Below are positions 38,863-62,865 of a stretch of DNA of 64,000 nucleotides, one piece after another; the stretch's first letter is position 1; every line of letters begins with the position of its first letter. The notes under the pieces were generated by a model. That model saw only the letters and a program-made list of their open reading frames with translations, did not search any database and had not been told where the DNA came from. Source of the stretch: Tieghemiomyces parasiticus (lineage: Eukaryota > Kickxellomycota > Dimargaritomycetes > Dimargaritales > Dimargaritaceae); contig JANBPT010000109.1 of assembly GCA_027575765.1 (NCBI GenBank), positions 1 to 64,000 of the forward strand, written 5' to 3'. Position numbers and translations under genes: made by a program.

Positions 38863-41800
38863 CTAGGCACGATTAGAAACTGAACGGAGCAGTTGCTCTA
38901 GGGTTTCGCGCCAGGTGGTGGCGAGGCGCTCAATATTGGGAGTGGCAAAAACGTCGGTACTGTAGCCGACGTTGATGGCCAGTCGGTCGTCATCATGGAA
39001 ACACAAAAAGTCGAGCAAATAGGGCCAGCAGTTGGCTAGACCAAGCTGGCTGTACTCACGCATAATGTCAGCACGACTCTGGAAGAGCTGGCTGGTGGAG
39101 CGGACGCCGGTGGCGTCCACCCGGCCAAGGTAGTTGAAGGCGTACTGCGGGACAGAGCCGAGTCGCTCCCGGTCGGCAGCAGACCGATGCCTGAGAAGCG
39201 GGTAGGTGAAGCCACGGTGCGGAATGGCGCGGAGGGCCGCCTGTACCTGGCGCAGGGTCCCGGTGAGTGATTCGTGCGGGTCTGCGGCGGTCAGGCTTAC
39301 TGGGTACAGCGCGGTAAACCACCCTACGGTGCGGGACACGTCGTAGCCAGGCAGGTGGGCCTGGCGGCCGTGGGACTGGAACTCGAGTACTAGGCCGGCT
39401 CGGTCCGGATAGCAGGTGACGAAGGCGCGCACGAGGGCGGTGAGCATTAGCTCCAGAGGTTCGGCACCCAGAGCCTCGGCAGCGGGGCCGAAGAGTGCTC
39501 GGGTGAGGTTGGCATCCAGGTACGTGGTGGCCCCGGTCTGGGAGACCACAGTGCGGGTGGCTGCCGTCAGGGGATAGTCCGGCGCGACGGGTGGGTGGGA
39601 GGGCATGTCAGGCCAGTCGGTGGGCTGGAGCTCGCGGGCCCATTCGGTCAGGAGAGCGGACCAACGCCGAAACCCTAGGGTCTTAGGTGGTAGGGAGAAC
39701 CCGCGCATCAGGGTTTCCAGGTCCTCCACCAGGATACGCAGCGAGACGAGATCCACAACGAGGTGGTGGGCAGTAAAGAGGAAATACTGCTGGTCGCCAA
39801 TGTCAAAAACACCGGCCCGGACTAGGGGACCCTCGGCATAGTTGAGTCCGTCCAGGAATGACGGGATGAGGTCGCGCATAGCCTGCTCGCTGGCCACGGC
39901 GTGGTAGCTAAGCCAGTCGGTTACCTCGGGAGCGTCGTCAGCCACCCATCCGGTCAGTGTGGCTGCATCTTCACTAACATCGTTGATCGGCCCGCAACCA
40001 TCGTACCGGCTGCGCAATAGGTCGTGATGGCGCATGAGGGCCAGAAGCACCTGCTGCCAGCGAGTGAGCGGATGGACGGTGGCCGACTGTAGGAGGATTG
40101 ACAGGCGAAACTCGTGAGGAGCGGCGAGATTCATCCGGAAGAAGTTGCGCTGCACCGGAGTTAGGGTGAACTGGCCTGTCGCAGTGTCCGCTTCGGAATC
40201 GACGGTGGCGTCGGCGGTGGGGGTACAAGACCGGGCCAGGTCACGAACTGTGCGTTGACGATCAATGTCCGCCAGGCGGAGGTCGAGGCCGGCGGACCGG
40301 CACTTGGCCGCCAGGTGCACGGCGACGAGAGAATCGCCACCAAGTTGGAAGAAAGTCGCGGTTGGGTTCAGTGTGGAACGATCTTTCTGTAGTACATCGG
40401 CCAGGATATCGAGTAGGGTGCCTAGATTGGGTAGGTCTTGGGCTGGCGATTCGGTGGGTAGGGTCGGGACCACGGAAGTGAGTGATGTCACTTCCAAGGC
40501 AGGTAGGGCCCGCCGGTCCACTCTACCCTGCGGAGTACGAGGCAACGCATCCAGGGTGGCCAGAGACTCGGGAACCATGTGGGCTGGTAAGTGGGTACGC
40601 ACCGTGGCCAGGACGGCCGCACTGTCTAGCGACGCAGGGGTTACGAACCCGACCAGGTGGTCCCGCTGTACGGCGGCGTAGGCGCTGTCAACCCCTGGGT
40701 AGGCCAACAGGGCAGCTTTCACGTCGCCCAATTCCACGCGGAACCCCTGCACCTTGACTTGATCGTCTAGGCGGCCCACGAAGGCGATGCGACCCTGGGC
40801 ATCCAGGAGGCGGACGGCGTCCCCCGTGCGATAGACCCGGCCAGGTCCGAAGGGGTTGGGGAGGAACTGTGCGGCAGTGAGTTCGGAGCGACTAAAGTAC
40901 TCGCGCGCGAGAGTCGCACCACTAATGTAGAGCTCGCCCACAGTACCGATAGGGACGGGCCGTTGGTGGGAATCGAGTACATAGCCCAGGGCCCCGCGGA
41001 TAGGGGTCAGGTTAATGGGGTCGCCCGCGGCGAGTACGGTAGCGTGGGAGTATATTGAAGTCTCAGAGGATCCGTAGCAATGGACCAGGCGGACATGGGT
41101 CGACCAGCGGTGTGCCAACGCCGGCGGCAGGACTTCGCCACCCACCACCACGCAGCGTAGGCGCGAGGTAAGGGTCGGGTCGAGGGTGGCCAGGAGGGAC
41201 GGGGTGCAGCTGAGCACGGTACCGGTAGCAAGGGCGTCAGGCAGGTCGAGCGGGGCGGTCACTACCGTAGCGCCCGCGAGCAAGGGAACCCAAAGCTCAG
41301 CGATCGCAGCGTCGCACGCCGGGGCCAGAACGGGGCAGACCACGTCGTCAGTACGAGGCTGGATGATCTCAGAGATGCCAGTGAGGCTAGCGGCGGCGGC
41401 AGCGTGGTCGATCCATACCCCCTTGGGATGGTCGGTGGAGCCGGAAGTGTAGACCATCCAGGCGGGGTCACGGGGGGTTACTGCGGGCAGGTTAACCTGA
41501 TCCGCGGTGTCGGCATCGGCACCGGCCAAGTCGTCCCACGCGGGGTTTAACGCGGCGGTGCGCACGTGGGTGGGGAGGGCCGCAACCACAGCCTCATCGA
41601 CCCGCGTCCCGACGAGCACGCACAAAACTGGCATGTCTTGTAGAATATATGTGAGGTGCTCGGTCGGGTGGGTCGGATCGAGCACAAGGAAGGCTGCGCC
41701 GGCGCGCCAGGCGGTCAATTGGCCCACGGCCAGCTCGGCGCGGTCGGCTGTAAGCAGAGCGATCACGGGGGGCCGGGAGGCCGGGGTATCTACAGCGGTC

Positions 41801-43320
41801 ACGGTCTCAAGGAGTCGGACGGCTAGGCGGCCGGCCCGGCGCCAGAAGGAGTTGTAGGTCAGGGTCCGGTCGTCGGACAGGCGCATGGCTACGCGGTCGG
41901 GGGTGGCCCGGGTCCGGGCCTCGATCAGCGCCAGGACGGAGGTCGTCGGGCCGGTAGGTTCCAGCGCGTCCTTGGGGGTCAATTGGGTCGCCTCATCGGT
42001 GTCAAACACGTCCACCGACCCAAGGGAAGCGGCAGGTTCCGCGCGGGCCAATCGATTAACAGCCGCCGTGAAGTGACGGGCCAGACGGCCTACGAAGTCG
42101 GGTTCAAACTTGGCCGGTTGGTACTCCACCTTGACGGTTAGTGTGTCGTCGTGTACGAAAGTGCACAAGGATAGGTCAAAGTCCGTGTGCTCTACACCAT
42201 ATTCGCCCGTCACGGTGATTGGACAGTCCGGGTCGGGCTCGCCCACTGGGTAGTTCTCGTAAACCAGGGCGGTGTTGAAGAGCGCAGTACCCGGACCCAG
42301 TGGTCCCCAGCGGTGGATATCGGTTAGGCGGCAGTGTTCAAACCGGACGCCGTCTGCGGCCTGGCCGTGCAGTCCCCGGAGCCACTCGTCTACGGGGACA
42401 GTGGGGTCCACGTCGACGCGGAAGGGCACGTTGTTAATGCACAGGCCGATGAGCTGGTCCATATTGGTCACTGGCAGGTTCCGGCCGGAGACCACCACAC
42501 CAAAAGTGACGGCAGCTCGGTCCGTGTACCGGTGTAGAACCAGACCCCAGGCGGCGCGGAGCAACGTGGCGAAGGTAATCCCGCGGGATTGCATACAGTG
42601 GTTTAGGCCGGCCATTCCTGGGAGGTCCACAGTCACAAAGTGGCTGAGTTTGGGTCCGGGTTCCGCTGCCGTTGTGGTCTTGGCGACCGGTATGGGCGGG
42701 CCGCTTAGAACAGTGGGCTCGGTAATCCCGGAAAGTAAGTTGGCCCAATGCATTCGGGCCTCCTCCGCGTCCTGGTGGACCAGATAGCTGATGAAGGCCT
42801 CGTAATCGGCGACCGCGGTGGGTAGGGCCCGGTCGACGTAGTGGGCTAGCAGCTGGGCAATCATGAGTGCACTAGACCAGCCGTCGGCCAGGGAGTGGTG
42901 AACGGTGAAGAGGAACCGGTGGTGATCTGTCCCGACCCGAATCAGGGCGAATCGTAGCAGGGGCTCGTGCGGACAGAACCCCCGCTGGCGGTCCTGGCCG
43001 AGGTAGTCTCGCTCCCACCCCAAATAGTTCTCGGCCAGGTCTGTGAGGTCAGCCTCGTACCAGAGCGCCGTGAATTGTTTGAGGACCAGCTGGAGGTGGG
43101 CCCCGCCCAGGGCCGGACTACCCAATAGGAACCGGGTTCGCAGGATAGCGTGGGCCTGGCCGACTGCGTCCCAGGCACGCTTAAACCGGGCCGGATCAAG
43201 GGGCCCACGCACGTCGAATGCGGTTTGTACAGTGTAGGAGGTTGGGTCTCGCAGCAGAGCCCCCAGCAGGCCTTCCTGCAGCGGCGCACACGGGTACAAG
43301 GTTTCGATCTGGCGAAGGTC
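38863..43320 (-). other. NRPS module 5: C4-A5-T5-E5, partly degenerate
   Basis: C4 (HHSLADGWS near residue 6658) and T5 (LGGDSLVAV near 7510) are intact. A5 is odd: the phosphate loop reads YTSGSTDHPKG, A5 motif YGSSETS replaces YGPTE, the A4 motif is ACDAAIAELW, and the A10 lysine is Arg (PQGRVDRR). Pocket by eye: D-A-A-S-V-G-C-I-Y then Arg. E5 has HHLVVDLVSL, with Leu for Trp, and QSHGRQ in place of the catalytic-Glu EGHGR motif; FNYLGR is kept. The protein ends about 35 residues after the domain, with nothing to release the chain. Confidence 0.85.
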
Positions 43321-46300
43321 TAGGCCGAGGCGGGGCAGCTCAGTTTCCACAAGGGTGTCTAGCTGGGCTTCAGTAGCGTCGAGAAGGGGGAAGTCGGCGG
43401 GGCAGTACACGGCTGCGGAGCCACTGACAAGGTCGGTCAGCAGGCAGGCCAACTCGTCCCGCCAGGTGTCAACCAGCCGTGTAGCCGTAGACTCACGGTG
43501 CAAGGCTGTATTGTAAGTCAGGCAAACCACAAGGCCGCGATCGGCGTCCACTTTGCAGACGGCGTCCAGTATGCGGTTCCAAGCCTCGGTCTTGGCAACG
43601 TTGCCGGCATCCTCTCCCAGCAGCTCGTCGCAGGACCGCCAGAAAGCCTGGGCCGACTCCAGTTGTTCAAACCGGCCAAGGTAATTGAAGAGCAAATCGG
43701 GCTTGGTGACAGACGGGCCAGTTTCGGCCGATTTCGGGTAGCTTAGCAGACTGTAGGGAAAGCCATGATTGGGTACGGCGCGTAGACGTTGCTTGACGTG
43801 ACGCAGGCGAGCAAGGCGGGCACGGGTGGCGCTCTCGGCGGGGTCAGTCGCACCAGGTAGGATCGGCGGGTGGAATGGAAGCGGGTACGTTACGGTGAAC
43901 CAGCCTACGGTCCGGGACAAATCGATAGCGTCGTCCCACGGGTGGCGGCCGTGGCTCTCGAGTTCAATTTCCAATGAATCCGTGGAAAACACGTGTTGCA
44001 CAGCGGCTACCAGGGCAGCCACCATGAGTTCCTGCGGTTTCACGTCGGCCACGGTGCTGAGCTGGCAGAAGAGCTGATCGGTGAGGGTGGGGCCCAAGGC
44101 GCGCTCCAGGGACCGGCAGGCCGCAAGAGGAACGTAGGCGCGGCGGTCCACGTCAAAGTCAAGCGGAATGGGGGTCACCGGCGGGTAAGCGGGCCAAGTC
44201 GTGGCGAGCTGAGTTTGGGCGTGGTTCTCCAGCAGTGTGGCCCACTGGCGGAAGGCCATGGACTTGGGTGGGAGCTCACGACCGCAGAGGAGGGCCTCCA
44301 GGTCCTCCAGCATGATGCGCCAGGAAACCAGGTCGAGGGCAAAGTGGTGAACGGTGACGAAGAGGTACGTGCCGGCGTGGGGGGCTCCAGCGGCGATCGT
44401 GACTAGGCCCACAGCCAGGATGGGACCCTCTGCCAGGGACAGGGTGGTCTGTTCGGCGTGGACCCAGGCGCTAAGGGCGTCAAGGTCGGGAAAGGTCTCT
44501 GCCGTGAGTCGCACAAACGGGGTCAGATCCGCCACGGTGGCCTCGCCCGTGTTCCCTACAGGCGGGACGTTCTGCTGCCAGTCACCCCGGGCATTCCGCG
44601 TCAAGCGGACGCGCAACATATCGTGATGGCGGACCAAGTAATGGAGGGCCCCGCGCAAAGCATCCAATGTGAGTTCGGTGCGGCAGCCCAGTAGGAAAGA
44701 CATGTTGAACTGGTCGATCCGTTCGAAGGGCTGGGACAAGAACCAGTGTTGAATCGGGGTGAGTGGGACTAGGCCAAGCGGTGAGGCATCGGTGCGGTGC
44801 ACAATACTGTCAGCGGGGGCAGCGGCAAACCGAACCTGACCGGCCAGCTGCGCCAGGATTGGGGTCTTGAACACCTGGGCCACCGTTACGTCTAGGCCGG
44901 CGCGCTTAGCCCGAGACACAAGCTGGATGGCCGAGATGGAGTCGCCTCCTAGTTCGAAAAAGGAGGCATTGGCGTTACAGGTGGCCGGATCCACATTCAG
45001 GGTGGCGGCCAGGGCATCAACCAGGGCGCCGAGAACGGCTGGGTCACAGGCATACAACGTGGCACGCCCCGTGGCTGCCGTTGGCAGGGGTCGACCGGCG
45101 AGTTGGCGACGATCCACTTTTCCGTTACTGGTCAAGGGCATTGTAGCCAGGGTGATCAAGTGGTGGGGGACCATGTAGGCTGGGAGGCGGGCGCCGAGCT
45201 GGTCGGAGACGGCCGTACAGTCTATAGTGCTAGTGTCGCCCGACGATGGCGCCAGGTAGAGGACCAGCTGCTGATCCTTGACAACCGCAGCGGCCTGTGC
45301 GACCGCCGGGTCCAGCTCAGCGGTGCTCTCGAGCTCGCCTAGTTCGATGCGGAACCCGCGCAGTTTGACCTGGGAATCACTGCGCCCCAGGATCTGAATG
45401 CCGCCGTCGGGGAGCCAGCGGCCCAGGTCGCCCGTACGGTAGATTCGACCGGGGCCGAAAGGATTGGGGAGAAACACCCGCTCGGTCAGATCAGGCCGTT
45501 GCCAGTAGCCAGGGCTAAGCCCGCGACCGGCCAGGTACAATTCACCGGTAACTCCCGCGGGGACGGGGCGGAGCGCCTCATCCAACACGTAGCAGGCGGT
45601 GTTGGCTAGCGGGATACCCACACTAACTAGCCGACCAGGTACGACCCGCCCGGTGTGGGAGCCGATACTGGCCTCAGACGGGCCGTAGGCATTGTAGAAC
45701 GTGCATCGGCCGGCCCAACGCTGCACAAGGGAGTACGGGAGAGGCTCCCCGGCAGTAGCCACCACCTGCAAGTTGGGGTAGTCGGCTGGATCGAGGATGG
45801 CTAGCGCGGACGGCGTGCAGATGAGATTGGTGACGCGGCGAGCGGTCAGCGAGAAGTCTTCCTCGCGTAGGACGAGGGTAGCCCCGTTAGCCAAGGTGGT
45901 AAACGTTTCGGAGACGCAGCCGTCGAAGGCCACGTTTAGGAACTGCATAACGCGGGTTCCCGGTCCGCTAGAAAAGTTGTGCGGGGCGTGGCGCACAAAG
46001 TTGACGATGCCGCGGTGGCGGATGGGAACGCCCTTGGGACGGCCGGTGGTGCCCGAGGTGAAGATAACGTAGGCTAAGTCGTCGGGGTCAACCATGGTGT
46101 CGATCAGGGGGACATCGGGGACAGCCACGAGGTCGTCGAGGCGACCCACGCGAGCTGGCTCCACGCCCAGCGTCTCCGTCACGAAGTTGTAGTGGGCTGC
46201 CGTGGTGAGCACGACGGGTGTGTCCAGTTCGTGTAGCATGTGACGCAACCGGTCAGCAGCGTTGCTGGCCTCCATGGGACAATAGGCCCCCCCCGCGAGG

Positions 46301-55300: not shown

Positions 55301-58300
55301 GCAAAGGCGGTGATGTTAACGATCAAACGGCAGTCGGCGGTCTGCAGGATATAGTCACGACGTTTAGGGGGGAGCTGGGCGTCAATCGGAACGTATACAG
55401 CTCCAAGGTGCCACAGGCCGAGCAAAGTTACAAGGAGGGCCGGATGGCGCTGCACGATTACGGCCACACGGTCACCGGCGGTGATGCCGAGTCCTTGGAG
55501 CTTCCCGGCCAGAGTGGCGGAGTGCCTGATGAGGTCGGCGTAGGTCACAGAGCAGGCGCTGTGTTGGATGGCCACGGTGCTGGCGAACCGGGACATGCGC
55601 TCACGGAGCAGGGCGGGGAGGGAGGTGTTGGCGGGGAAAGGGTGGGTGGTGGCCGCGGCGTCGTGGCTGAAGTGGTCCAGAATTAGCGAGAGCTCGGCCG
55701 GGGCCACCAAATCCAGCGTATCGAGAGACTGGGCCGGCTGGGCCACAGCGGCCTCGACGAAATGGACAAAGTTGGCAAGAAGTCGCCGAGCGTGGTCCAT
55801 AGTGAATAACCAGGCGGCGGACGTGAGACACAGGAAGGTGCGATCGGTCCGATCGACTTCCACGGTCAAGTGCAACTCCGACGTGGTGGTTGGAGCGATA
55901 TCGTCCGGGCCGGACTCGTCGGATAGTAGATCCCAGCCATCTTTGCGCGTCGGTAAACGCCAGTCGCGAAATTCGAGGGTAACCTGGTGCGGGTACGCAA
56001 AACGAGGGTCCCAGCCAAGAGGCAGAGCAGTGACAGACGTGGCATCTTTGGGGGCCAGCGAAGGGGAATCGGGTGCCAAGAGGTCTGCCAAACAGCGGCC
56101 AGTTGGGTGCGACAAGGTGGTAGTATACAGTGCTGCGCACGGGCCCAGCACAGCATGCCCCTGGCCGACTAGGGATGGCCTACTCACCCCTTGGTGCACG
56201 TCCTGACGGTGGCTAATTCGACTAACGAAGGCGCCCCACATAACTCCCCACACTGCCACCAGATCCGTGTCGGTCTCCTCCGCGATGCGGGCGAGGTCAG
56301 CTTGGGCGGCGGGAGTAAATTCGAGACGGTGTTCGTGTGCCTCAGGAGCGAAGAGGGCAGGCCTGGGCAGGTCGGTAGGTAAGTCGAGGGGAACGAACTC
56401 GGGAGCGAGGGACCGGTCGGCGTTCGTAACGGTTGTTTGGTTGGGATCGCCGGCGATAAGGTCAAGCAGCTGTGTGGGTTCGGCGGGGAGGGCCGGTCCC
56501 AGTCCCTGGCCGCTCAGGGCTTCGTAAGTGTGCATGAGCTGCTCCAGGAACTGTGGCAAGGACGGCCCGTCCATGATGAGGACATGGAAAGCACAGGTCA
56601 GGCGGTTACTGTCAGAAAGAGTCACCGCAAACAGTGGCAGGCGCTGGGGGTCAAAGCTGGGGCGCAGGGGGGCGTCAGATACGTCGCACGTAGCCTGAGC
56701 ATGCACGGACTGGACGACAGTAGGCCCCGTAGGTTGGAACGTGGTGCGTAGTATTTCGTGACGATCGGCCAGAGCGAGTACAGCGAGCTGAAGACGCGCC
56801 AGATCCAGTGTAGTGTCGGTGACACGGTAGGCGGCGCGTATCACCAGCGATGATGGTTCTTCAAGGTTACAGCGCAGCCAGCTGCGCCATTGCGCAGCTG
56901 ACAAAGGCCCGCTGCGTACCACGTCGTCACATCCGTTCTCGGTCAAGCCGGGAGGGGCGATTGGGGTGGCACGGTCGGGGTTATCGATCAAGGTGGCCAG
57001 GTCACCCAATTGGCGGTTGCGGTACAAGTCGGCGGGGGTCACCGGTAGGCCGAAGCGCGTGGTAATTAGGTAACAAAATTGGAAAAGGCGTGGGATGGTG
57101 AATTCGCCCCCGGCCAACAGATCGGTCGTTACCGTCGCTAGCGGACTGGTGTAGCCGTCGGCGTTCGACACCAGGGCGTGGTAGGTGAGGGCTAGCCAGT
57201 GCTGGGTGGGATTGAGGCCCGAGTTCTCAACCCTCAGTTGGAAGTAGACGGGGGCGGCGCGAGAAAGAAATGATGGGTCCCAGTCGGCCAGCTCCGATCC
57301 GAAATACTCGCCCACTGAAACGATCGCACTGGGTAGCAGGGGTGGCGGTAGGACACCCTGCAGTCCTTGCACCATAGTTGTAATGTCACTGTCTTCCGCA
57401 TCGACCCAGGCCAGGAGCCGCCCTGGCTCCACAGGCACAACATGGACACGAGCCGCACCGGCGGCTTCCAGGGCTTTCGTAAGGATGATCAAGGGGAAAC
57501 GAAGACCACCCCGTTCGGCAAAACGGGACTCTGATGTATCCGCGACCCCACTACCCTGGAGTCCGGTCGGTACGGGTGGAACTGCCAGGTCGCCCAGGGT
57601 CACGGTCGGCGTGGCGCTGATAAGGGTGGCCAATGCATGGTCGAGGCACCTAGCGACGTAGGCAGCGGCCTCGGTGTTGTAGTGCGTACAGTGGTAGAAC
57701 ACCGTGACGTCGTAGCGGTCCCCGCGGTCACTGACCATTACGGCCAGCGGGAACTCGGTCACTTCGTAACCGATCCGATCCGTGATGCGTAGCGGACACC
57801 CAGGGTCAGCGGTCGGAGGCGGGTAGTTCTCAAAGACGAGCATGGTGCGGAAGAGCGGGGTGCCGTCTGTATGGCCAGCGTGGCGAGTGACAGTAACGAG
57901 GGCGTCATGCTCGCGTGGGATCATGCGAACCTGGTCGTCATGGAGGGACTTAAGCCACTCAAGTACGCTCGTTTGGTGAGCCAGGGCGACGCGAACAGGC
58001 AGGGTGTTGAGGCAGGGCCCGGCCAGGCTTTCAATTCCGTCGAAGCCCTGGTTACGACCGGACACCACCGAGCCGAAAGTAACGTCCTCACTGCCAGACA
58101 GTCGACCAAGCGTGAGGGCGAAGGCGCCACGTAGGAGGGCGGCAACCGTTAAGCCATGCTGCTGGCTGAAACGGTGAAGCTTCGCCATGGGCAGCTGAAG
58201 GGGTGCAATAAACTGAGCGGGCGGGGCAGCCGCGGCAGTCGGTGGGCCCAGGTAGGGCAGCGGGGTTGGTCGACTTCCGCGTAGGTAGTCGGCCCAGAAT

Positions 58301-61300
58301 GCAGCCGCGCCCTGTCGATCGGCCTCGCTACGCTGGATCTCGTTGATGTGGTCCACAAAGGCGCGGAACGCCGGACGGACGGGCAATCCGGCCACTGAGT
58401 CAGTTTGGTAGGCCGCTAGCCAATCCTGAAGGAGCAGCGAGAAGGACCACCCGTCAAACAACGCGTGGTGGATCGACAGGAGGAGGCGGTGTGTACCGGA
58501 TTGAGGCGTCCGGGCCAGTTGGATGCGAACCAGGGGGCTATCAAGAGCCATCCCACGGGCGCGATCAGCGCAGAGGTAGGCCGCCTCCGGGTCACCGTCC
58601 TGTGCCCACGTGACGGTGGCCGGCCACTCGGCATTCGGCTCGGTGAGGGCGACCTGGACGAACCCAAAAGTACCCGCCGCAGGGGTGTCGACGAAGACCG
58701 TACGCAGCAGGGGCTGACGCTCACAGACCGTGAGCCAGGCGGAACGCAGTCGGGCCTCGTCGAGTTCCCCCGTCAGGCCCAGGGCGATCTGTACGAGATA
58801 ACGGGAGGGGTCCTGCAGGGAGGCCGCCAGGAGTTGGGCCTGAATCGCCGTCGTTGGGTACATGTCATCCACCTGAGTAGGCGCAATTCCGCGACGGCCC
58901 AGCTCCGTAAAAACGGCTCGGAGCTCGTCGGAGGAGGCCCCCAACTGCGGCACGTCCGCAGGGGTCCAGAGGGGCCGAGGGGTCACCCGGTGGTCGGCGA
59001 GACGGCACAGGTTAGCCAGCCAGCCGTCCATGACCTCGTGGAGCACCGTGGGAGGGAAGTACGCCGCGTTGTAGTCCACCATAAGCCTGAGCTGCTCGCC
59101 GCTGATCACCGACATGGCGTTCAGGTTGTGGGTCATAAACTCGCCTGGCGCGTAATCGTACTGTCCGTGAGTTCCCTGCCAATCAATGTCCACCCAGGCC
59201 CCGGAGTCGGTGCCCGCGTCGTTAAACCGCCCAAAAAAGTTGAATAAGATGTCGGTCTTGGCGGGCGTCTTGGCCAGGAGTTGCGCGCGTTCATTAGGTT
59301 GGGCCCCCGGCGAGTGACGTAGCACTCCGAAGGGGAAACCCTTACGCGGAATCTGCTGCAACGCCGCCTTGGTGGTCAGCAACAATGTGGCGAGATCCGT
59401 CGCATCCGGGGTGGCCAGGACTAGCGGATAAACCGAAGTAAACCACCCCACTGTACGGCTGACATCCAGTCCGTCGCGCCAGGGCTCGCGGCCATGGCCC
59501 TCCATATGCAGGGCAACCGCGGGAGTACTGAACGTGGCGGCGTAAGCCGCTGCGAAAGCCGCCAGCACCAGGTCGCGCGGAGTGACTCGCCACTCGGCAG
59601 CCACTGCGCCGACGAGAGCCGCCGTACGTTCGCGGTCCAGGACGCGACCCCCGGCTTCGCGCTGGTAATCGACCGTATCGACACGGTGCGTGAGTGGAGA
59701 CGGCACGATTGCAGAGTCGGGAAACGACTGGGCGGGCCATTCGGCGGCCTTCACCTGGGAGGCGTGCAGGTCCAACTGCTCAGCCCAGATTCGGAAGGCC
59801 AGGCTTGGGGCGGGGAGCGGCTGGCCGTCCAAGAGGCTGTTAAGGTCCTCGACAAGGATACGCCACGACACCAGGTCGATGAAGAGATGGTGGACTGTGA
59901 GGTGAAGGATGGCAGGGGCAGTGACATCTGCGGGGTCGGTAAGCAGGACAGCCGCTAGAAGGGGACCATGGGCTAGGTCAAATTCGCTAGGGATCGTCGT
60001 GAGGTAAGCGTCACGCTCTGCGGGGGTCAGGGCTACGACTCGCACCAGGATATGGTCGGTTAAAGTGCCCATGACGGGGACCTCCTGGTACCAATTTCCT
60101 TCGGTTTCACCTTGAGTGTAACGAGCGCGCAGCATGTCGTGGTGAGCCACGAGGGTGGTTAGGGCCGCCTCCAGTTGGCCGCGGGTGAGTGGACGGCGCA
60201 CCCGACAGTTAAACGACTGGTTGAAATGGAATCGGCGTCGCACGGGCCATTCAAAGAACCAGCGCTGGATCGGGGTTAGGGGTACGGGGCCCGTGGCTGG
60301 GCCGGTCAGCGTCGCGTCAGGGGCGATTCCCTCGGTTTCGAGGGGCTGCAATTGGGAGGCCATGGCGCGTAGGGTGGGTTGGTCAAAGATTTGGGGGACG
60401 GTGAGGCGGTATCCTCGCTGGCGGCATTGCGCAACGGCAAGGATGGCTACTATAGAGTCACCCCCCAGGCGGAAAAAGTGACTGTCGTGGCGCAGAGTGG
60501 AGACCGGGCGACGTAGAACATGGCCCCATACCGCAGCAAGTGCGGCTTGGGCCTGGGTGTCCCAAACGGCGGGATCGGCCGGGTTGGAAGCGGCGACGTC
60601 GGACTTGAGCTCAGGGACGATGGGGAGTGCCTCGCGGTCAACCTTGTCGCTACGGGTGCGCGGGAAGGTGGTCAATGCCATGAGATAGGTGGGCACCATG
60701 TAGCGCGGAAGGCCAGTGGTCAAATGGACGCGGAGGTCGTCCAGATCTACCGTGGCAGGGGTCACATAACCTATCAACCGGTCCTGGTGGACCACGGTCA
60801 CGGCCTGCGTCACGCCAGGGTAGGCTAGCAGGCAGGTGTCGATCTCGCCCAGCTCGATCCGGAAACCGTTGACCTTTACCTGGTGATCAATCCGGCCTAG
60901 GTACTCTAACCGGCCGTCCGGCAGCCAGCGGGCATAGTCTCCAGTACGGTAGACCCGGCCGGGCCCGAAGGGGTTGGCCAGGAAACGCGTGGCACTGAGC
61001 TCCGGGAGGTTGTTGTAGCCGCGGGCAACGCCTACGCCACCAATCAATAGCTCTCCGGGAACACCTACGGGCACTGGTTGCAGGCCGTCATCTACAATGT
61101 ACGACGCGGTACCCGCTATCGGTTTACCAATGGTTACTGGTTCGTCGGGGGCTACAACACCGTAGTGGGTGAAGACGGTGGCCTCAGTGGGCCCGTAGCC
61201 GTTGCCGATTGGACACCGGGATTCCCACCGCCGACGTAGGTCCGTTGGGAAGGCCTCACCTACACTGGTGATCTGGCGCAGACGCGGGAACCGATCGGGG

Positions 61301-62865
61301 TCAACCAGGGCCAGGAATGACGGCGTGGCAGTGATGATGTCAGCCGTGGCCAGGTCGGCCAGGGGATCCTCGCCGGATAGAACCAGGGTACCACCGTTAC
61401 ATAACGTGACGAACCCTTCGTACAGGAAGGCGTCGAAGGCCACCGAGAAAACCTGGAACACGGCCACGCCCGGACCAATTTCGTCGGAGCGGCAAGGAAT
61501 GCGGACAATGTTGGACAGGCCGTGATGTTCCACCAACACACCCTTGGGCCGGCCCGTGGTGCCCGACGTGTAGATGACGTAGGCGAGCTGGTCGGGGGTT
61601 ACGGTCGGCAGTGCTGGCGAGGAAGCAGGGTTTGGGAGGCTGGCGACCGGGGGCTCGACATCGACGACGCAGACTAGGCCGTCGTAGACCGCGGCCAGTG
61701 TCTCACGCAGGGCCGCGGTAGTCAGTACCACCGGGGCGTCGCAGTCGGTTAGAATGTAGCGGGTGCGATCGGCCGGGTACTGGACGTCGATGGGTACGAA
61801 GGCACCTCCAGCCTTCAGAACGGCCAGCATCGCTAACATGACCCAGTGCGACTTTGGTATGAATAGGGCGACGCGAGTCTCACTCGTCACTCCAAACCCC
61901 TGCCGTAGGCGGCAGGCGAGGTCAGTACTGGTGCGACTGAGGGTGTCGTAGGTCACCGTCTCCCCAGCGAAGGTTTGGGCCGCGATATCCGGATGCGACT
62001 TGGCCCACTCATCGACCATCTCGACGACAGGGACGAAGGTAGTACTCAGATCGCACGATGGCAAAGGGGGGTTAAAGGTGTGGAGGACCTTCTGCCTGTG
62101 TTCCAAGTCGAGCCACTGCACTGAAGCCACAGTCGGTTGGACGGTACTGGTTTCCAGCGGAAAGGTGGTCAGCTGGACCAGGCTACCCAGCAGGCACGCG
62201 AGCTGACGAACCAGTTCCTCCGCTGCAATGCGATGGATACGGCGTGTATCGTAGGCGAGGACAATCTGATCCACGCCGTCGACCGGGGCGGGGCCGACAG
62301 TGACGGCCACCGTTACCCGGGCGCGTTCCATCCAGGGGCGTGCAACGGTCAGAAAGACGGATTCGGCCACGGCCCCAGTCTCGACGGCATGGACGATCAT
62401 AGTTTCGAACAGAGCCACGTCGAACTGTTCCGCCTGATCCGACGCGGTCGGTTCCGGGGAGTGACTTAGCGACTCGGCAATCTCTGCCAGCCATGGCAGG
62501 AGGGGGCGACCTGGCGTACAGCCCGGAACCGTGGCGATCATGGAGTGGTCTTCGGCTTGTGACGATACAACCAATCGCCCAATAACCAGACGGTCGGTGC
62601 GGGCATAGCGGGTCACCAGCACTGACCACGCCGCCTGGAGGAGGATCGAGGCAGACATGCCCGTTGCATCCGTCCACGCTGCCAGGTCGAGCAAGAGCGG
62701 GCAGGTCTGCGTGTCGATGCCACCCTGTGGGACTGTGGGTTTGAGCAGGGGGAGGGCTTCGTAGTCGCCATGGCCCTGGGCAAGGAGGGCCGAGTAATGA
62801 GCGATACGCAAGGCGCTGTCGGTGGCGGTACCGGTGGTGGCGTTAGAGCGGTCGGTGTGTGACAT
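38863..62865 (-). CDS. giant nonribosomal peptide synthetase, five A-T-E modules plus one decayed module
   Basis: An uninterrupted frame of 8,000 codons. The ATG at 62865 is the first one downstream of a TATA box at 63171; the frame itself opens upstream to a TTG at 63075. Domain order (residues, approximate): truncated C 1-270, A1 275-770, T1 775-840, E1 845-1300, C1 1330-1755, decayed block 1760-1965, dead C 1980-2390, A2-T2 2410-2965, E2 2980-3435, C2 3460-3895, A3-T3 3925-4490, E3 4510-4950, C3 4970-5415, A4-T4 5450-6010, E4 6030-6490, C4 6515-6950, A5-T5 6970-7545, E5 7560-8000. It should activate amino acids as adenylates, load them on phosphopantetheine arms (GGDS in all five T domains), epimerise and condense them. 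There is no TE, reductase or terminal C domain, and no intron in 24 kb although neighbouring genes have them. Confidence 0.95.
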   Translation of the reverse strand: MSHTDRSNATTGTATDSALRIAHYSALLAQGHGDYEALPLLKPTVPQGGIDTQTCPLLLDLAAWTDATGMSASILLQAAWSVLVTRYARTDRLVIGRLVVSSQAEDHSMIATVPGCTPGRPLLPWLAEIAESLSHSPEPTASDQAEQFDVALFETMIVHAVETGAVAESVFLTVARPWMERARVTVAVTVGPAPVDGVDQIVLAYDTRRIHRIAAEELVRQLACLLGSLVQLTTFPLETSTVQPTVASVQWLDLEHRQKVLHTFNPPLPSCDLSTTFVPVVEMVDEWAKSHPDIAAQTFAGETVTYDTLSRTSTDLACRLRQGFGVTSETRVALFIPKSHWVMLAMLAVLKAGGAFVPIDVQYPADRTRYILTDCDAPVVLTTAALRETLAAVYDGLVCVVDVEPPVASLPNPASSPALPTVTPDQLAYVIYTSGTTGRPKGVLVEHHGLSNIVRIPCRSDEIGPGVAVFQVFSVAFDAFLYEGFVTLCNGGTLVLSGEDPLADLATADIITATPSFLALVDPDRFPRLRQITSVGEAFPTDLRRRWESRCPIGNGYGPTEATVFTHYGVVAPDEPVTIGKPIAGTASYIVDDGLQPVPVGVPGELLIGGVGVARGYNNLPELSATRFLANPFGPGRVYRTGDYARWLPDGRLEYLGRIDHQVKVNGFRIELGEIDTCLLAYPGVTQAVTVVHQDRLIGYVTPATVDLDDLRVHLTTGLPRYMVPTYLMALTTFPRTRSDKVDREALPIVPELKSDVAASNPADPAVWDTQAQAALAAVWGHVLRRPVSTLRHDSHFFRLGGDSIVAILAVAQCRQRGYRLTVPQIFDQPTLRAMASQLQPLETEGIAPDATLTGPATGPVPLTPIQRWFFEWPVRRRFHFNQSFNCRVRRPLTRGQLEAALTTLVAHHDMLRARYTQGETEGNWYQEVPVMGTLTDHILVRVVALTPAERDAYLTTIPSEFDLAHGPLLAAVLLTDPADVTAPAILHLTVHHLFIDLVSWRILVEDLNSLLDGQPLPAPSLAFRIWAEQLDLHASQVKAAEWPAQSFPDSAIVPSPLTHRVDTVDYQREAGGRVLDRERTAALVGAVAAEWRVTPRDLVLAAFAAAYAATFSTPAVALHMEGHGREPWRDGLDVSRTVGWFTSVYPLVLATPDATDLATLLLTTKAALQQIPRKGFPFGVLRHSPGAQPNERAQLLAKTPAKTDILFNFFGRFNDAGTDSGAWVDIDWQGTHGQYDYAPGEFMTHNLNAMSVISGEQLRLMVDYNAAYFPPTVLHEVMDGWLANLCRLADHRVTPRPLWTPADVPQLGASSDELRAVFTELGRRGIAPTQVDDMYPTTAIQAQLLAASLQDPSRYLVQIALGLTGELDEARLRSAWLTVCERQPLLRTVFVDTPAAGTFGFVQVALTEPNAEWPATVTWAQDGDPEAAYLCADRARGMALDSPLVRIQLARTPQSGTHRLLLSIHHALFDGWSFSLLLQDWLAAYQTDSVAGLPVRPAFRAFVDHINEIQRSEADRQGAAAFWADYLRGSRPTPLPYLGPPTAAAAPPAQFIAPLQLPMAKLHRFSQQHGLTVAALLRGAFALTLGRLSGSEDVTFGSVVSGRNQGFDGIESLAGPCLNTLPVRVALAHQTSVLEWLKSLHDDQVRMIPREHDALVTVTRHAGHTDGTPLFRTMLVFENYPPPTADPGCPLRITDRIGYEVTEFPLAVMVSDRGDRYDVTVFYHCTHYNTEAAAYVARCLDHALATLISATPTVTLGDLAVPPVPTGLQGSGVADTSESRFAERGGLRFPLIILTKALEAAGAARVHVVPVEPGRLLAWVDAEDSDITTMVQGLQGVLPPPLLPSAIVSVGEYFGSELADWDPSFLSRAAPVYFQLRVENSGLNPTQHWLALTYHALVSNADGYTSPLATVTTDLLAGGEFTIPRLFQFCYLITTRFGLPVTPADLYRNRQLGDLATLIDNPDRATPIAPPGLTENGCDDVVRSGPLSAAQWRSWLRCNLEEPSSLVIRAAYRVTDTTLDLARLQLAVLALADRHEILRTTFQPTGPTVVQSVHAQATCDVSDAPLRPSFDPQRLPLFAVTLSDSNRLTCAFHVLIMDGPSLPQFLEQLMHTYEALSGQGLGPALPAEPTQLLDLIAGDPNQTTVTNADRSLAPEFVPLDLPTDLPRPALFAPEAHEHRLEFTPAAQADLARIAEETDTDLVAVWGVMWGAFVSRISHRQDVHQGVSRPSLVGQGHAVLGPCAALYTTTLSHPTGRCLADLLAPDSPSLAPKDATSVTALPLGWDPRFAYPHQVTLEFRDWRLPTRKDGWDLLSDESGPDDIAPTTTSELHLTVEVDRTDRTFLCLTSAAWLFTMDHARRLLANFVHFVEAAVAQPAQSLDTLDLVAPAELSLILDHFSHDAAATTHPFPANTSLPALLRERMSRFASTVAIQHSACSVTYADLIRHSATLAGKLQGLGITAGDRVAVIVQRHPALLVTLLGLWHLGAVYVPIDAQLPPKRRDYILQTADCRLIVNITAFAPPDHLSVPVLSFTLPDVDTLPASPTAPTANLRLDQPAYLIFTSGTTGVPKGVLVSHAGLANLAMAHAGSLCPRPGTRILHPMAPGFDGFLHIAFIALCHGGTLVLPTDTEGLLAGLSTVDTAVVTPSMLAAVDPSDYPQLQIIGVAAEPLPAALADQWADRVELYNYYGPTEATICSHIGRVYSGRPVTIGKPLANTTCYIVDPTLQPVPIGVAGEIMLGGPNLALGYYNQPELTDTKFVPNPFGPGKLYHTGDLGCWTADGQVLYVGRIDEQVKLRGFRIELAEVESCLRLRSEVKTAVALVHRAQLAAFVTGPNELDEAAVRRDLADHLPHYMLPSRILTLQTLPLTVNGKVDYQQLRSLLEQTALLPSATLALSGQARVLREVLAAVLGIAADHIDMAHSFYRVGGDSISAIQTASRCRQLGWQIAVPDLLRGDPLEKTAQSCMVAHTSAHESRPSPTVMSGQAFPLTPIQRWFLSVRRFRNVHRFNQTFVFELTRPVGREVIQQALTQVRDTHPMLRATFTLQTESSLPNWIQTYHDPEDAAPVPVTERQAELADLPAAVAEVHAAINIHTGPLLSAGILQVAEADAGLLILSVHHLVVDLVSWSTLLEDLAAALNGTRPVPATLPFPDWAAALNQYGRQSTADGDTPGANLSQATGWALTIDPNLLVSNTVGQARTIRIDIATETSHRLLRPTPGLQTTDLLIAALAAAFHRWQPDQPSPVIDTEGHGRRPWLPTQDLARTVGWFTTVLALAPVIPASSGPVAWIRAAKAAVREAIRDELRASVRRFAAVDPTAEGYHPGDVAFNFLGQTVNDHALTARGTAPWRPRFDLRHLVSEMDGAELRAHLLDVVVLVTDDGTLAVEVTYPPSIFAPPSLAEFRSALTDEMDRLTEQLTITPHHRYWVPLDFPLLPAVTTVDLLALETELTRHGLSTAMVETVYPCTPLQAGLLAVTTRRPAEYTLQLSFTLRGLTVRDRVYTALQAVVRRHPILRTRFLLEGFGRYTEAVQVVTQDTEFPWFDAASWSELGHDGEAGYLAADRQRGFHVQLAPMLRLTTVAESTDRVRCVLTSHHAILDGWSNGILLRELHLALTATADFATLPTAVPYEAFVRHLGGQDPAQARKFWSDYLTGVPKEGTQLRLPAPLAPPERLRDAELLHSLYPDAGALRRRAEHHGLTVSSLLRAAWALLLHAYTGQTDVVFGVTVAGRAVPVDGIEHLMGFCINTIPFRATVDPGVSLLAFLRTVGDHSAQVTAFEHSSLADISRWIDPAEGRATLFNTILVYENYPSDTNEADPAAVALTDVTADEFTEYPVSGCFFDDPAGSLRVRLTYKTAEVDGVYVGHLAAALTRYISLIAVALEVHLQPSAETTLAQLALTPLEQERELLAWSQPAALAEPNVTVVDLIRAWSTELPDHVAIEQGLDQTTYATLWTTAGRIAHQLLALVATDPHTSVVIGLLVTRHPATIVAMLGVLRAGFAYVPIDATNPADRQIALLTECACPVVVDVAGTCRYLGPGPAGNTKDGWHYATFADLAGDVAESNVSLPLPSPDDLAYVVYTSGSTGRPKGVQILHRGLANLVQSPPHNLGVQRGERVLQLFNLAFDGCVNDIYSCLANGGTLVLNPPVSSSFNNIDVVALTPSLLTAFDPAEFGRVGRLMTGAEPLPQPLADRWAARFPMYNLYGPSEATVCTHVGRVEPGRPITLGRPIAGSVCYVLDALLRPVPTGAVGELFLGGPNLARGYLHRPDLDAQAFCANPFGPGKLYRTGDLVRWLADGALQYMGRTGDFVKVRGFRIELGEVDAVLSQCPGVDAGAALVHRDRIYACVAPAEVDTTAAHDLLAAKLPAYMVPHRIYSLPSLPTTANNKVDRAALSRHVVAAEMAVEAEEANNQCDASLPQDDVQRRVVTAMAASLHLDPTRVGLHASFFQLGGDSISAIRYVARLRDAGVTATVGQVFDHPTPYGLAAVADVIGDVVIDLVVQDPVVGHFDLTPVQSWFWDLGLVNVHRFNQSFLLELTVPHDPVAITAALRRLVTHHDILRVRFNPAPAEGSSWAPQLPAAIAVDGDLLVAVREDPIPLADLPTACVALTDRIRLDTGPVTVAGIFHTDPKTQWLFWSVHHLAVDLVSWRILLEDLAMLLKEPTASLPQKTVSYLAWSAHLREYAGQVTWPTESAETVALYADTDVADPLTVNLVGARVNETHELSSDITGALFLGPTAVTWSAQPVELLLAGFAAAYLDHYGAPSMQIDVEGHGRQPFGPLDLSRTVGWFTAIYPVTFRSDAQYPLTAALRSAKQGMRGAPHAGLAFGMRKYLGSDSAQLSYGRVAFNYLGRFEGLEAADAPFHARSELLPDACDLDTEEAWPYLLELNCRHVGDRLELAIRHCPSVHHQATVRQLLKQWAAHLATFANGHPATAPVSCLAPVDVPLLPCSQDSLDMLLQEAGTAGGFSPGDVGRILPATPLQEGLVVRTMQDPSAYLVQMVFDIVGNLDLERYRGVWNDLTARYEALRTRLHATDQLPGVTLLQFVLRTARVNWHVADWSDCPPVELSDREAAYIAADRQCGFSLDGPLVRVAVLATGSARHRCVFTVHHTLLDGWSNSRLLAESLALYHATPLDPPVQFHPFVRYLTEQSPAQAQTFWQTYLDNVLPTPAIQLPVDPVLIEPTEENRGDNGGSIDVPAVSRSHWLTFSTPLDQLTAFTRRQDLTVATVLRALWGLLLARYVGNASEVTFGVVVSGRNVPIPDVERLVGMCINTVAVRVRFPAEASVQAWLRTLHRDAGRMIPHEHHRLVDVKAWAGVASQTDLFQSLLVYENYPVAETPATKEPEIRYDRGEGHEFTEYPLSVCFVEDPANGHLRVRLLYDAIRYLPVYVERMAAALDDILTRLVQASPDQCVADLFTLPAAEAQLVLHTWAEGPTDDSPDLEIGLHNWVVRQAQRDPDAVALEYIDQRWTYAELHQMGSRVAHWLQSRGLARNRPVALIIDRCPAMVFGLFGTLLAGGAYCPMEASNAADRLRHMLHELDTPVVLTTAAHYNFVTETLGVEPARVGRLDDLVAVPDVPLIDTMVDPDDLAYVIFTSGTTGRPKGVPIRHRGIVNFVRHAPHNFSSGPGTRVMQFLNVAFDGCVSETFTTLANGATLVLREEDFSLTARRVTNLICTPSALAILDPADYPNLQVVATAGEPLPYSLVQRWAGRCTFYNAYGPSEASIGSHTGRVVPGRLVSVGIPLANTACYVLDEALRPVPAGVTGELYLAGRGLSPGYWQRPDLTERVFLPNPFGPGRIYRTGDLGRWLPDGGIQILGRSDSQVKLRGFRIELGELESTAELDPAVAQAAAVVKDQQLVLYLAPSSGDTSTIDCTAVSDQLGARLPAYMVPHHLITLATMPLTSNGKVDRRQLAGRPLPTAATGRATLYACDPAVLGALVDALAATLNVDPATCNANASFFELGGDSISAIQLVSRAKRAGLDVTVAQVFKTPILAQLAGQVRFAAAPADSIVHRTDASPLGLVPLTPIQHWFLSQPFERIDQFNMSFLLGCRTELTLDALRGALHYLVRHHDMLRVRLTRNARGDWQQNVPPVGNTGEATVADLTPFVRLTAETFPDLDALSAWVHAEQTTLSLAEGPILAVGLVTIAAGAPHAGTYLFVTVHHFALDLVSWRIMLEDLEALLCGRELPPKSMAFRQWATLLENHAQTQLATTWPAYPPVTPIPLDFDVDRRAYVPLAACRSLERALGPTLTDQLFCQLSTVADVKPQELMVAALVAAVQHVFSTDSLEIELESHGRHPWDDAIDLSRTVGWFTVTYPLPFHPPILPGATDPAESATRARLARLRHVKQRLRAVPNHGFPYSLLSYPKSAETGPSVTKPDLLFNYLGRFEQLESAQAFWRSCDELLGEDAGNVAKTEAWNRILDAVCKVDADRGLVVCLTYNTALHRESTATRLVDTWRDELACLLTDLVSGSAAVYCPADFPLLDATEAQLDTLVETELPRLGLDLRQIETLYPCAPLQEGLLGALLRDPTSYTVQTAFDVRGPLDPARFKRAWDAVGQAHAILRTRFLLGSPALGGAHLQLVLKQFTALWYEADLTDLAENYLGWERDYLGQDRQRGFCPHEPLLRFALIRVGTDHHRFLFTVHHSLADGWSSALMIAQLLAHYVDRALPTAVADYEAFISYLVHQDAEEARMHWANLLSGITEPTVLSGPPIPVAKTTTAAEPGPKLSHFVTVDLPGMAGLNHCMQSRGITFATLLRAAWGLVLHRYTDRAAVTFGVVVSGRNLPVTNMDQLIGLCINNVPFRVDVDPTVPVDEWLRGLHGQAADGVRFEHCRLTDIHRWGPLGPGTALFNTALVYENYPVGEPDPDCPITVTGEYGVEHTDFDLSLCTFVHDDTLTVKVEYQPAKFEPDFVGRLARHFTAAVNRLARAEPAASLGSVDVFDTDEATQLTPKDALEPTGPTTSVLALIEARTRATPDRVAMRLSDDRTLTYNSFWRRAGRLAVRLLETVTAVDTPASRPPVIALLTADRAELAVGQLTAWRAGAAFLVLDPTHPTEHLTYILQDMPVLCVLVGTRVDEAVVAALPTHVRTAALNPAWDDLAGADADTADQVNLPAVTPRDPAWMVYTSGSTDHPKGVWIDHAAAAASLTGISEIIQPRTDDVVCPVLAPACDAAIAELWVPLLAGATVVTAPLDLPDALATGTVLSCTPSLLATLDPTLTSRLRCVVVGGEVLPPALAHRWSTHVRLVHCYGSSETSIYSHATVLAAGDPINLTPIRGALGYVLDSHQRPVPIGTVGELYISGATLAREYFSRSELTAAQFLPNPFGPGRVYRTGDAVRLLDAQGRIAFVGRLDDQVKVQGFRVELGDVKAALLAYPGVDSAYAAVQRDHLVGFVTPASLDSAAVLATVRTHLPAHMVPESLATLDALPRTPQGRVDRRALPALEVTSLTSVVPTLPTESPAQDLPNLGTLLDILADVLQKDRSTLNPTATFFQLGGDSLVAVHLAAKCRSAGLDLRLADIDRQRTVRDLARSCTPTADATVDSEADTATGQFTLTPVQRNFFRMNLAAPHEFRLSILLQSATVHPLTRWQQVLLALMRHHDLLRSRYDGCGPINDVSEDAATLTGWVADDAPEVTDWLSYHAVASEQAMRDLIPSFLDGLNYAEGPLVRAGVFDIGDQQYFLFTAHHLVVDLVSLRILVEDLETLMRGFSLPPKTLGFRRWSALLTEWARELQPTDWPDMPSHPPVAPDYPLTAATRTVVSQTGATTYLDANLTRALFGPAAEALGAEPLELMLTALVRAFVTCYPDRAGLVLEFQSHGRQAHLPGYDVSRTVGWFTALYPVSLTAADPHESLTGTLRQVQAALRAIPHRGFTYPLLRHRSAADRERLGSVPQYAFNYLGRVDATGVRSTSQLFQSRADIMREYSQLGLANCWPYLLDFLCFHDDDRLAINVGYSTDVFATPNIERLATTWRETLEQLLRSVSNRA
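43390..47960 (-). other. NRPS module 4: C3-A4-T4-E4
   Basis: C3 has HHTLLDGWS near residue 5118. A4 has FTSGTTGRPKG near 5605, YGPSEAS and NGKVDRR. Pocket by eye: D-G-S-I-A-A-A-I-G-K, small residues lining a roomy pocket. T4 is LGGDSISAI near 5972. E4 has HHFALDLVSW near 6174 and ESHGRH (Glu kept, Gly to Ser), and FNYLGR. It is probably functional throughout. Confidence 0.88.
48010..52480 (-). other. NRPS module 3: C2-A3-T3-E3
   Basis: C2 has HHAILDGWS near residue 3597. A3 has YTSGSTGRPKG near 4089, YGPSEAT and the lysine in NNKVDRA. Pocket by eye: D-G-N-A-M-G-L-V-C-K. T3 is LGGDSISAI near 4455. E3 has HHLAVDLVSW near 4645, EGHGRQ and FNYLGR. It is a complete elongation-plus-epimerisation module. 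Confidence 0.88.
52560..55645 (-). other. NRPS module 2: A2-T2-E2
   Basis: A2 motifs are intact (FTSGTTGVPKG near residue 2566, YGPTEAT, NGKVDYQ). Pocket by eye: D-G-H-V-G-A-Y-I-C-K. T2 is VGGDSISAI near 2928. E2 has HHLVVDLVSW near 3120, EGHGRR and FNFLGQ. It sits after the dead C domain, so any peptide bond to residue 1 would have to be made by C1 reaching past the decayed block. Confidence 0.85.
55690..58880 (-). other. NRPS: C1 followed by a decayed module
   Basis: C1 is intact (HHALFDGWS near residue 1467). The next roughly 200 residues lack all A-domain core motifs and end in a segment like the second half of a T domain (DLYRNRQLGDLATLI), with GGEF at the place where GGDS carries the phosphopantetheine serine. 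A further condensation-like domain follows, opening with SAAQWRSW and reading HVLIMDG where HHxxxDG belongs, so the catalytic second His is Val. The block therefore looks like a dead module left in the line between C1 and A2. Confidence 0.75.
58960..62045 (-). other. NRPS module 1: A1-T1-E1
   Basis: A1 has an intact phosphate loop (YTSGTTGRPKG near residue 430), YGPTEA and the A10 lysine (SDKVDRE). Specificity pocket read by eye against GrsA-PheA: D-A-Y-T-T-V-G-V-F-K. T1 carries LGGDSIVAI (near 800). E1 has HHLFIDLVSW near 990, the catalytic-Glu motif EGHGRE, and FNFFGR. All three look functional. The product would be a D-configured starter on T1. Confidence 0.85.
62046..62865 (-). other. NRPS: N-terminal half-C domain
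   Basis: Residues 1 to about 273 match only the C-terminal half of a condensation domain (SASILLQAAWSVLVTRYARTD, then the floor and latch region). The half that carries HHxxxDG is absent, so no condensation can happen here and A1 is expected to be the initiating module. Confidence 0.65.

Follow-up and report, generated by a model that had tools for sequence, protein, structure and literature searches.

The 64,000-nucleotide stretch of contig JANBPT010000109.1 of the Dimargaritales fungus Tieghemiomyces parasiticus, referred to in the following as the window, carries a gene for a giant nonribosomal peptide synthetase (NRPS), built from adenylation (A), thiolation (T), condensation (C) and epimerization (E) domains. 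On balance, the sequence analysis favors the view that this protein belongs to an old, lineage-specific family of giant Dimargaritales NRPSs, and that its last domain, the E-like domain E5, would be non-epimerizing and most likely serve in chain release or hand-over.

A single minus-strand frame of 8,070 codons runs from a TTG at 63075 to 38863 with zero internal stops; read from the ATG at 62865 to the stop at 38863, this 24-kb frame encodes 8,000 amino acids (aa). Around 194 stops would be expected in 8,000 codons from base composition alone, and the uninterrupted 8,000-residue frame reported in a preliminary description of the locus is borne out. A second copy on contig C486 of the same genome (Dimargaritales, Kickxellomycotina) is also open, over 8,008 codons stop to stop. 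The window contig and C486 match at 95.6% across 25.4 kb, and the C486 partners of the two neighboring genes tested, encoding an RRM protein and a sorting nexin, match at 96-97% with the order kept. The ratio of non-synonymous to synonymous substitution rates (dN/dS) between the copies is 0.178 over 7,998 codons, with 660 synonymous and 351 non-synonymous differences (236, 141 and 634 differences at codon positions 1, 2 and 3 over the frame). The protein is under purifying selection as a whole, including a dead module described below, and on the strength of the two open copies and the dN/dS of 0.18 we reject a pseudogene. By domain, dN/dS is 0.127 for A4 and for E4, 0.141 for C2, 0.204 for A5, 0.214 for the dead C domain and 0.312 for E2; E5, at 0.079, is the lowest among the large domains, the N-terminal part reaches 0.366, and T5 has 0 amino-acid differences in 64 codons. 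As the simplest reading, the assembly likely contains two haplotypes or derives from a hybrid; in the relevant passages of Ahrendt 2018 (PMC6784888), three of four Zoopagomycota are non-haploid. Positions 36380-64000 of the window are collinear with C486 at ≈4.4% divergence, and cytochrome P450 and reductase matches elsewhere in the genome are mostly paired too.

Domains were called by profile searches with models built for this analysis. The raw profile order was C(remnant)-A-T-C-C-C-A-T-C-C-A-T-C-C-A-T-C-C-A-T-C, with A, T and C domains repeated in one chain, as in a multimodular NRPS. The C-type domains after a T carry HHxxxD and [EQ]xHGR, and those before an A carry HHxxxDG (read by eye in C4), so that the full order reads [C remnant]-A-T-E-C-[dead module]-A-T-E-C-A-T-E-C-A-T-E-C-A-T-E(altered). 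The searches confirm the five A-T pairs, each with an E-type domain next to it and a separate C domain behind every internal E, that had been described previously. The earlier description was incomplete in that C1 and A2 are separated by a dead module.

All catalytic residues are intact in E1-E4: His and Asp in HHxxxD, and Glu in EGHGR. In a FastTree analysis of 341 C-type domains, E1-E5 all fall inside the E clade (support 1.0). Against the NCBIfam model TIGR01720, E1-E5 score 19.5-68 bits, short of the 74.2-bit cut-off, and C1-C4 have no listed match. From tree, motifs and fold we reject the idea that the E domains are ordinary C domains. C1-C4 and other fungal C domains adjoin 11 bacterial C rows, 9 of them located directly behind another C-type domain; this group (support 99) is separate from 21 other bacterial rows, of which 19 lie between a T and an A. 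Fungal C domains that do not stand behind an E also fall in the same C group as C1-C4. Together, the intact catalytic residues of E1-E4 and the placement of C1-C4 support the repeated E-C pairs and a product made up mostly of D-residues.

Module 5 is different. In both copies, the catalytic Glu of the EGHGR motif in E5 is replaced by Gln (QSHGRQ), and A5 carries Arg for Lys in motif A10, together with a changed A3 motif. Without that Glu in E5, epimerization by module 5 is not to be expected, and the earlier statement that every module does so fails at this point. By branch and fold, E5 still belongs with the E domains; its HHxxxD motif has both His and Asp, and the domain is under purifying selection. 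The loss is not peculiar to this protein: the Glu is absent in 20 of the 21 terminal domains examined, and present in all 32 internal ones and in 80 of 80 GTDB loci among the matches listed. Being common to the family, the Glu loss is old and retained. Sixteen of the 21 terminal domains also share a G[FYH]FAH signature, and the family's other readable terminal A domains retain their Lys.

In our working model, A1-T1-E1 would start the chain with a D-residue, C1 would carry it to T2 over the dead module, D-residues would be added by modules 2-4, and C4 would deliver the chain to T5. Residue 5, in the L form, would be left un-epimerized; its loading, if any, would occur in trans or through A5 in its altered form, and E5 would act either in chain release, by cyclization or hydrolysis, or in passing the chain on to a partner. 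By colinearity, the predicted product is D1-D2-D3-D4, followed by an L residue or by no fifth residue. The absence of the Glu from E5 and of the Lys from A5 does not support the previous prediction that all residues, up to five, are D. The pocket codes obtained by alignment are listed in Table 1; in the second copy, one position of the module-3 code differs.

No thioesterase (TE) or reductase was found in the window protein. A six-frame search of the genome, which can miss spliced genes, matched TE (PF00975) in three frames of 306-415 aa and reductase (PF07993) in four frames of 392-1,673 aa, none of them a giant NRPS, and gave no match to the beta-lactamase family PF00144, which includes the penicillin-binding protein (PBP)-type TEs. 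Six giant frames could be read to the end (the window, C486, C47, C428, C891 and C1142). With no TE or reductase found in any of the six, the terminal E-type domain is their only candidate for release in cis.

Several observations weigh against a release or hand-over role. With A5 dead and T5 unloaded, C4 would lack an acceptor, and elongation would halt after four residues. The release role of E5 is something that we infer, and the functions assigned to the Glu, as the base, and to the Lys, as essential, come from work on GrsA and TycA. The terminal domain of one D. xerosporica protein (P0008) retains the Glu, and the window E5 lacks the G[FYH]FAH of this genome's other terminal domains. The low dN/dS of E5 is based on counts of 33 and 8, with a Fisher p of 0.044 against the rest, uncorrected for picking the lowest domain; once that choice is allowed for, E5 is not significantly more constrained. 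In the paralogous pair C428 and C891, constraint on the terminal domain (dN/dS 0.356) is looser than on the internal E domains (0.218-0.289).

In a more specific form, which we propose only tentatively, the Dimargaritales would have recast an E domain as a new NRPS termination domain, which has lost the Glu but still has its His and Asp, and which releases or cyclizes the chain in synthetases lacking a TE or reductase; the window E5 would represent an early state, with Glu changed to Gln and without the new signature. A rather doubtful rival is that E5 and A5 are decaying, that a tetrapeptide is freed by slow hydrolysis or by a discrete hydrolase, and that module 5 is a mere scaffold. Decay would account for the loss of a key residue in both A5 and E5 while other readable terminal A domains keep theirs. 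It fits poorly with the dN/dS of A5 and E5, the unchanged T5 and the family-wide loss of the Glu. We consider it improbable that the NRPS is instead one subunit of a longer line, docking with partners through the C remnant at its N-terminus and the E-like domain at its other end, as in the E-ended TycA and GrsA. Bacterial E-ended subunits do pass the chain to a C-started partner, and an E-type domain likewise closes the other giant NRPSs of the genome whose ends were read; the E domain of known E-ended subunits is active, however, and the neighboring frames scanned, where spliced genes may be missed, yielded no partner gene. Docking is treated in passages of PMC11546977.

The dead module, at 55726-57588, consists of an A/T remnant without the GGDS serine and a C-like domain without HHxxxDG. 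It is also found in C47, C428 and C891 (22-23% identical), and, by domain order and motifs, in C818 and in proteins of Dimargaris cristalligena and D. xerosporica. Since it occurs across Dimargaritales genera, the module was probably dead before they parted. An AlphaFold model of the region had a predicted local distance difference test (pLDDT) score of 39.9, too low for use. The module is retained under selection and may serve for scaffolding or recruitment. The X domain of glycopeptide NRPSs occupies a terminal position, unlike the dead C-type domain here, which stands behind C1. The X domain, treated in passages of PMC11546977, is like the dead module a C-type domain retained without a working HHxxxDG. 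None (0) of the genome's P450 matches falls on the window contig.

The preliminary description suggested that the gene was acquired from bacteria or represents a very old bacterial-like line, and proposed trees of the individual domains. We built a C20 mixture-model E tree of 72 rows, including 30 bacterial E loci picked from the bacterial matches listed, and a C tree of 92 rows, excluding dead C domains (score <150) and allowing at most four rows per bacterial protein. References from other fungi were few (10 E and 20 C rows), and their fungal status, besides P0053 (Quaeritorhiza) and P0102 (Diploschistes), was assumed from Pfam content and tree position. In the FastTree analysis, the fungal E domains including Dimargaritales formed one group (0.986); the Dimargaritales alone did not, because other-fungal rows from nine proteins adjoin the E2 clade. 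In the C20 tree, the Dimargaritales E domains were one group (Shimodaira–Hasegawa-like approximate likelihood ratio test, SH-aLRT, 90) within a fungal group (92). Cross-genus clades at 99-100 were found for E1, E2, the penultimate E and the terminal E, and E3 had no such partner. In the C tree, the Dimargaritales joined other fungi at 99, with the 11 bacterial rows adjoining (90). The A tree also had positional clades (A1 0.993, A2 0.999, terminal 0.997, with chytrid rows inside); 25 other-fungal rows lay apart, and the deep forks were without support. Positional orthology of E, C and A domains thus spans Tieghemiomyces, Dimargaris and Dispira.

It is unlikely, in our estimate, that E-C modules passed from bacteria to the Dimargaritales ancestor very long ago and then descended vertically, as the best trees place both E and C with other fungi, albeit with few fungal rows. 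Approximately unbiased (AU) tests are nevertheless compatible with such an origin: placing the Dimargaritales E domains with bacteria was not rejected (p 0.478), and placing the C domains with the bacterial C domains that mostly follow an E was nearly rejected (p 0.064). Three bacterial rows, from Bacillus, Metabacillus and a long-branched Pollutimonas, adjoin the fungal E group (94, 89).

A recent transfer of a bacterial NRPS gene, which would explain the missing introns and the repeated E-C pairs usual in bacteria, is highly improbable, given the positional orthology, the fungal grouping (SH-aLRT 92 for E, 99 for C), the diverged second copy with the same neighbor order, and an identity of at most 34% to bacterial loci matching E4 among the matches listed (at least 80 loci), against 29-45% for other Dimargaritales domains. 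Neither the E nor the C tree nests these domains among bacterial sequences. Single-domain BLAST searches do score a mainly bacterial set (766 rows, 29-34% identity) slightly above other fungi (58 rows, 28-35%) in eight of nine domains. Bacterial genomes scanned with a single protein gave no match; an alignment-based scan did give loci.

The absence of introns had also been taken as a sign of bacterial origin. Open frames of more than 5,000 codons with C domains occur on at least 18 contigs of this genome (77 of 283 candidates scored), and we reject that argument, as frames of this kind are the rule in the family here. Whether the gene is intronless is a separate matter: the frame is open in both copies, but IWQ60_004348, the model of the second copy in the public record, takes out two in-frame blocks (204 and 180 nt) as introns; apart from these blocks and the pre-Met residues, it agrees with the C486 frame with 0 mismatches. 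Block 1 (204 nt, GTGAGT...CAG), in the dead C domain, has eight changed codons between the copies, one synonymous and seven non-synonymous, a pattern unlike the remainder of the frame; because of this, and with its GT...AG ends, it may be a real intron. Block 2 (180 nt, GTGGGG...CAG), at the end of E3, has two synonymous and three non-synonymous changed codons. Its excision, which would cut off the end of E3, is likely a prediction error.

The tyrocidine and gramicidin S synthetases resemble the window NRPS in their A-T-E initiation and in a separate E followed by its own C. Unlike theirs, the window E and C domains lie in the fungal group of the best trees; those lines have active E domains and a TE at the end. 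The Mortierella malpicyclin and malpibaldin synthetases are likewise large and intron-poor, come from early-diverging fungi and incorporate D residues, with dual E/C domains of bacterial type. The fungal CT release domains described in passages of PMC11546977 are, like E5, C-superfamily domains at the very end behind a T, with no TE and with HxxxDxxS kept; in our trees, which included no named CT domain, E5 lies in the E branch and not in the C branch.

An NRPS expansion in a related genus is already known. Passages of Ahrendt 2018 (PMC6784888) report 27 NRPS genes in D. cristalligena, of the same order, with two lineage-specific expansions, mostly alone on short contigs, and link its A domains to epipolythiodioxopiperazine synthetases; Tabima 2020 (PMC7466969, in part) counted 21 NRPS plus 7 NRPS-like, and the enrichment in Dimargaritales is restated in the corresponding passages of a 2023 review (PMC10386755). 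Two D. cristalligena proteins, P0005 and P0006, are relatives of the window NRPS. The Ahrendt 2018 passages do not touch on E content, a dead module or terminal domains lacking the Glu, and name no product; here, a mycoparasite is predicted to make D-rich peptides. Literature listings on Dimargaritales NRPSs, T. parasiticus and Dispira genomes show no title on this gene, which does not establish its absence from print. From an order rich in giant NRPSs, the protein offers a testable case in which the chemistry of a C-superfamily domain may have changed where the assembly line ends.

Table 1. Features of the NRPS gene and its neighborhood (window positions).
Feature	Position	Strand	Basis
NRPS coding frame, 8,000 aa from ATG	38863-62865	-	Met start and end same in second copy and its public model
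C-type N-terminal remnant, weak (18 bits, second half of profile)	62041-62865	-	profile search; Pfam Condensation: no match
A1, pocket code DAYTTVGVFK	60631-62034	-	alignment
T1 (GGDS)	60352-60543	-	profile search
E1, HHLFID and EGHGRE intact	58978-60306	-	motifs
C1, HHALFDG	57601-58881	-	profile search, motif, tree
Remnant: C-terminal part of A, and T without serine	56932-57588	-	by eye
Degenerate C-type domain without HHxxxDG, family-wide; contains block 1 (intron in public model)	55726-56931	-	profile search
A2, pocket code DGHVGAYICK	54229-55626	-	alignment
T2	53965-54156	-	profile search
E2, HHLVVD and EGHGRR intact	52597-53916	-	motifs
C2, HHAILDG	51205-52491	-	profile search, motif, tree
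A3, pocket code DGNAMGLVCK	49681-51093	-	alignment
T3	49390-49581	-	profile search
E3, HHLAVD and EGHGRQ intact	48049-49350	-	motifs
C3, HHTLLDG	46612-47943	-	profile search, motif, tree
A4, pocket code DGSIAAAIGK	45106-46515	-	alignment
T4	44836-45027	-	profile search
E4, HHFALD and ESHGRH intact	43423-44790	-	motifs
C4, HHSLADG	42028-43317	-	motif by eye; profile search, tree
A5, pocket code DAASVGCIYR; A10 QGRVDR (catalytic Lys to Arg), A3 TSGSTDHPKG, A5 motif HCYGSSE	40510-41943	-	alignment
Arg codon at catalytic Lys site of A5	40522-40524	-	placed by hand
T5	40228-40419	-	copy comparison
E5, last domain, E-like; HHLVVD intact, QSHGRQ without catalytic Glu	38869-40191	-	motifs, tree, fold
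Gln codon at catalytic Glu site of E5	39376-39378	-	placed by hand
RRM protein	36227-37783		
Sodium:solute symporter	33898-35541		
PX/Vps5 sorting nexin	27444-29297		
BUB1/Mad3 kinase	18593-23013		

Other family matches of the neighboring frames were to replication factor C, PCI and GCK proteins and, outside the window, to a mitochondrial carrier and WAPL. The matched frames are housekeeping or transport genes only, and a biosynthetic cluster was rejected on this basis for the frames scanned, where spliced genes may be missed. Scans of the window for tRNA and Rfam families gave no matches.

Elsewhere in the genome, C47 has a longer NRPS frame (9,121 codons stop to stop), which contains seven A domains but not as many E domains. 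On C478, C707, C932, C1109, C459 and C640, NRPS matches are interrupted by one or two in-frame stops and may be broken or spliced relatives. Synonymous divergence (dS) between C428 and C891 is uneven. It is 0.12-0.24 in nine aligned C-type domains and 0.09-0.65 in the T domains, and in the A domains it reaches 0.84-1.07 in modules 2, 4 and 5, against 0.13 and 0.20 in modules 1 and 3. The edges of divergence lie inside the A domain, where 40-codon blocks have a nucleotide identity of 0.53-0.78 (one 0.88); outside it, most blocks are at 0.82-0.99. Natural exchange has likely affected the A cores in modules 2, 4 and 5 of this pair, and such exchange in related genes of one genome would be useful for NRPS engineering. 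The first 290 residues of C428 and C891 are also diverged.
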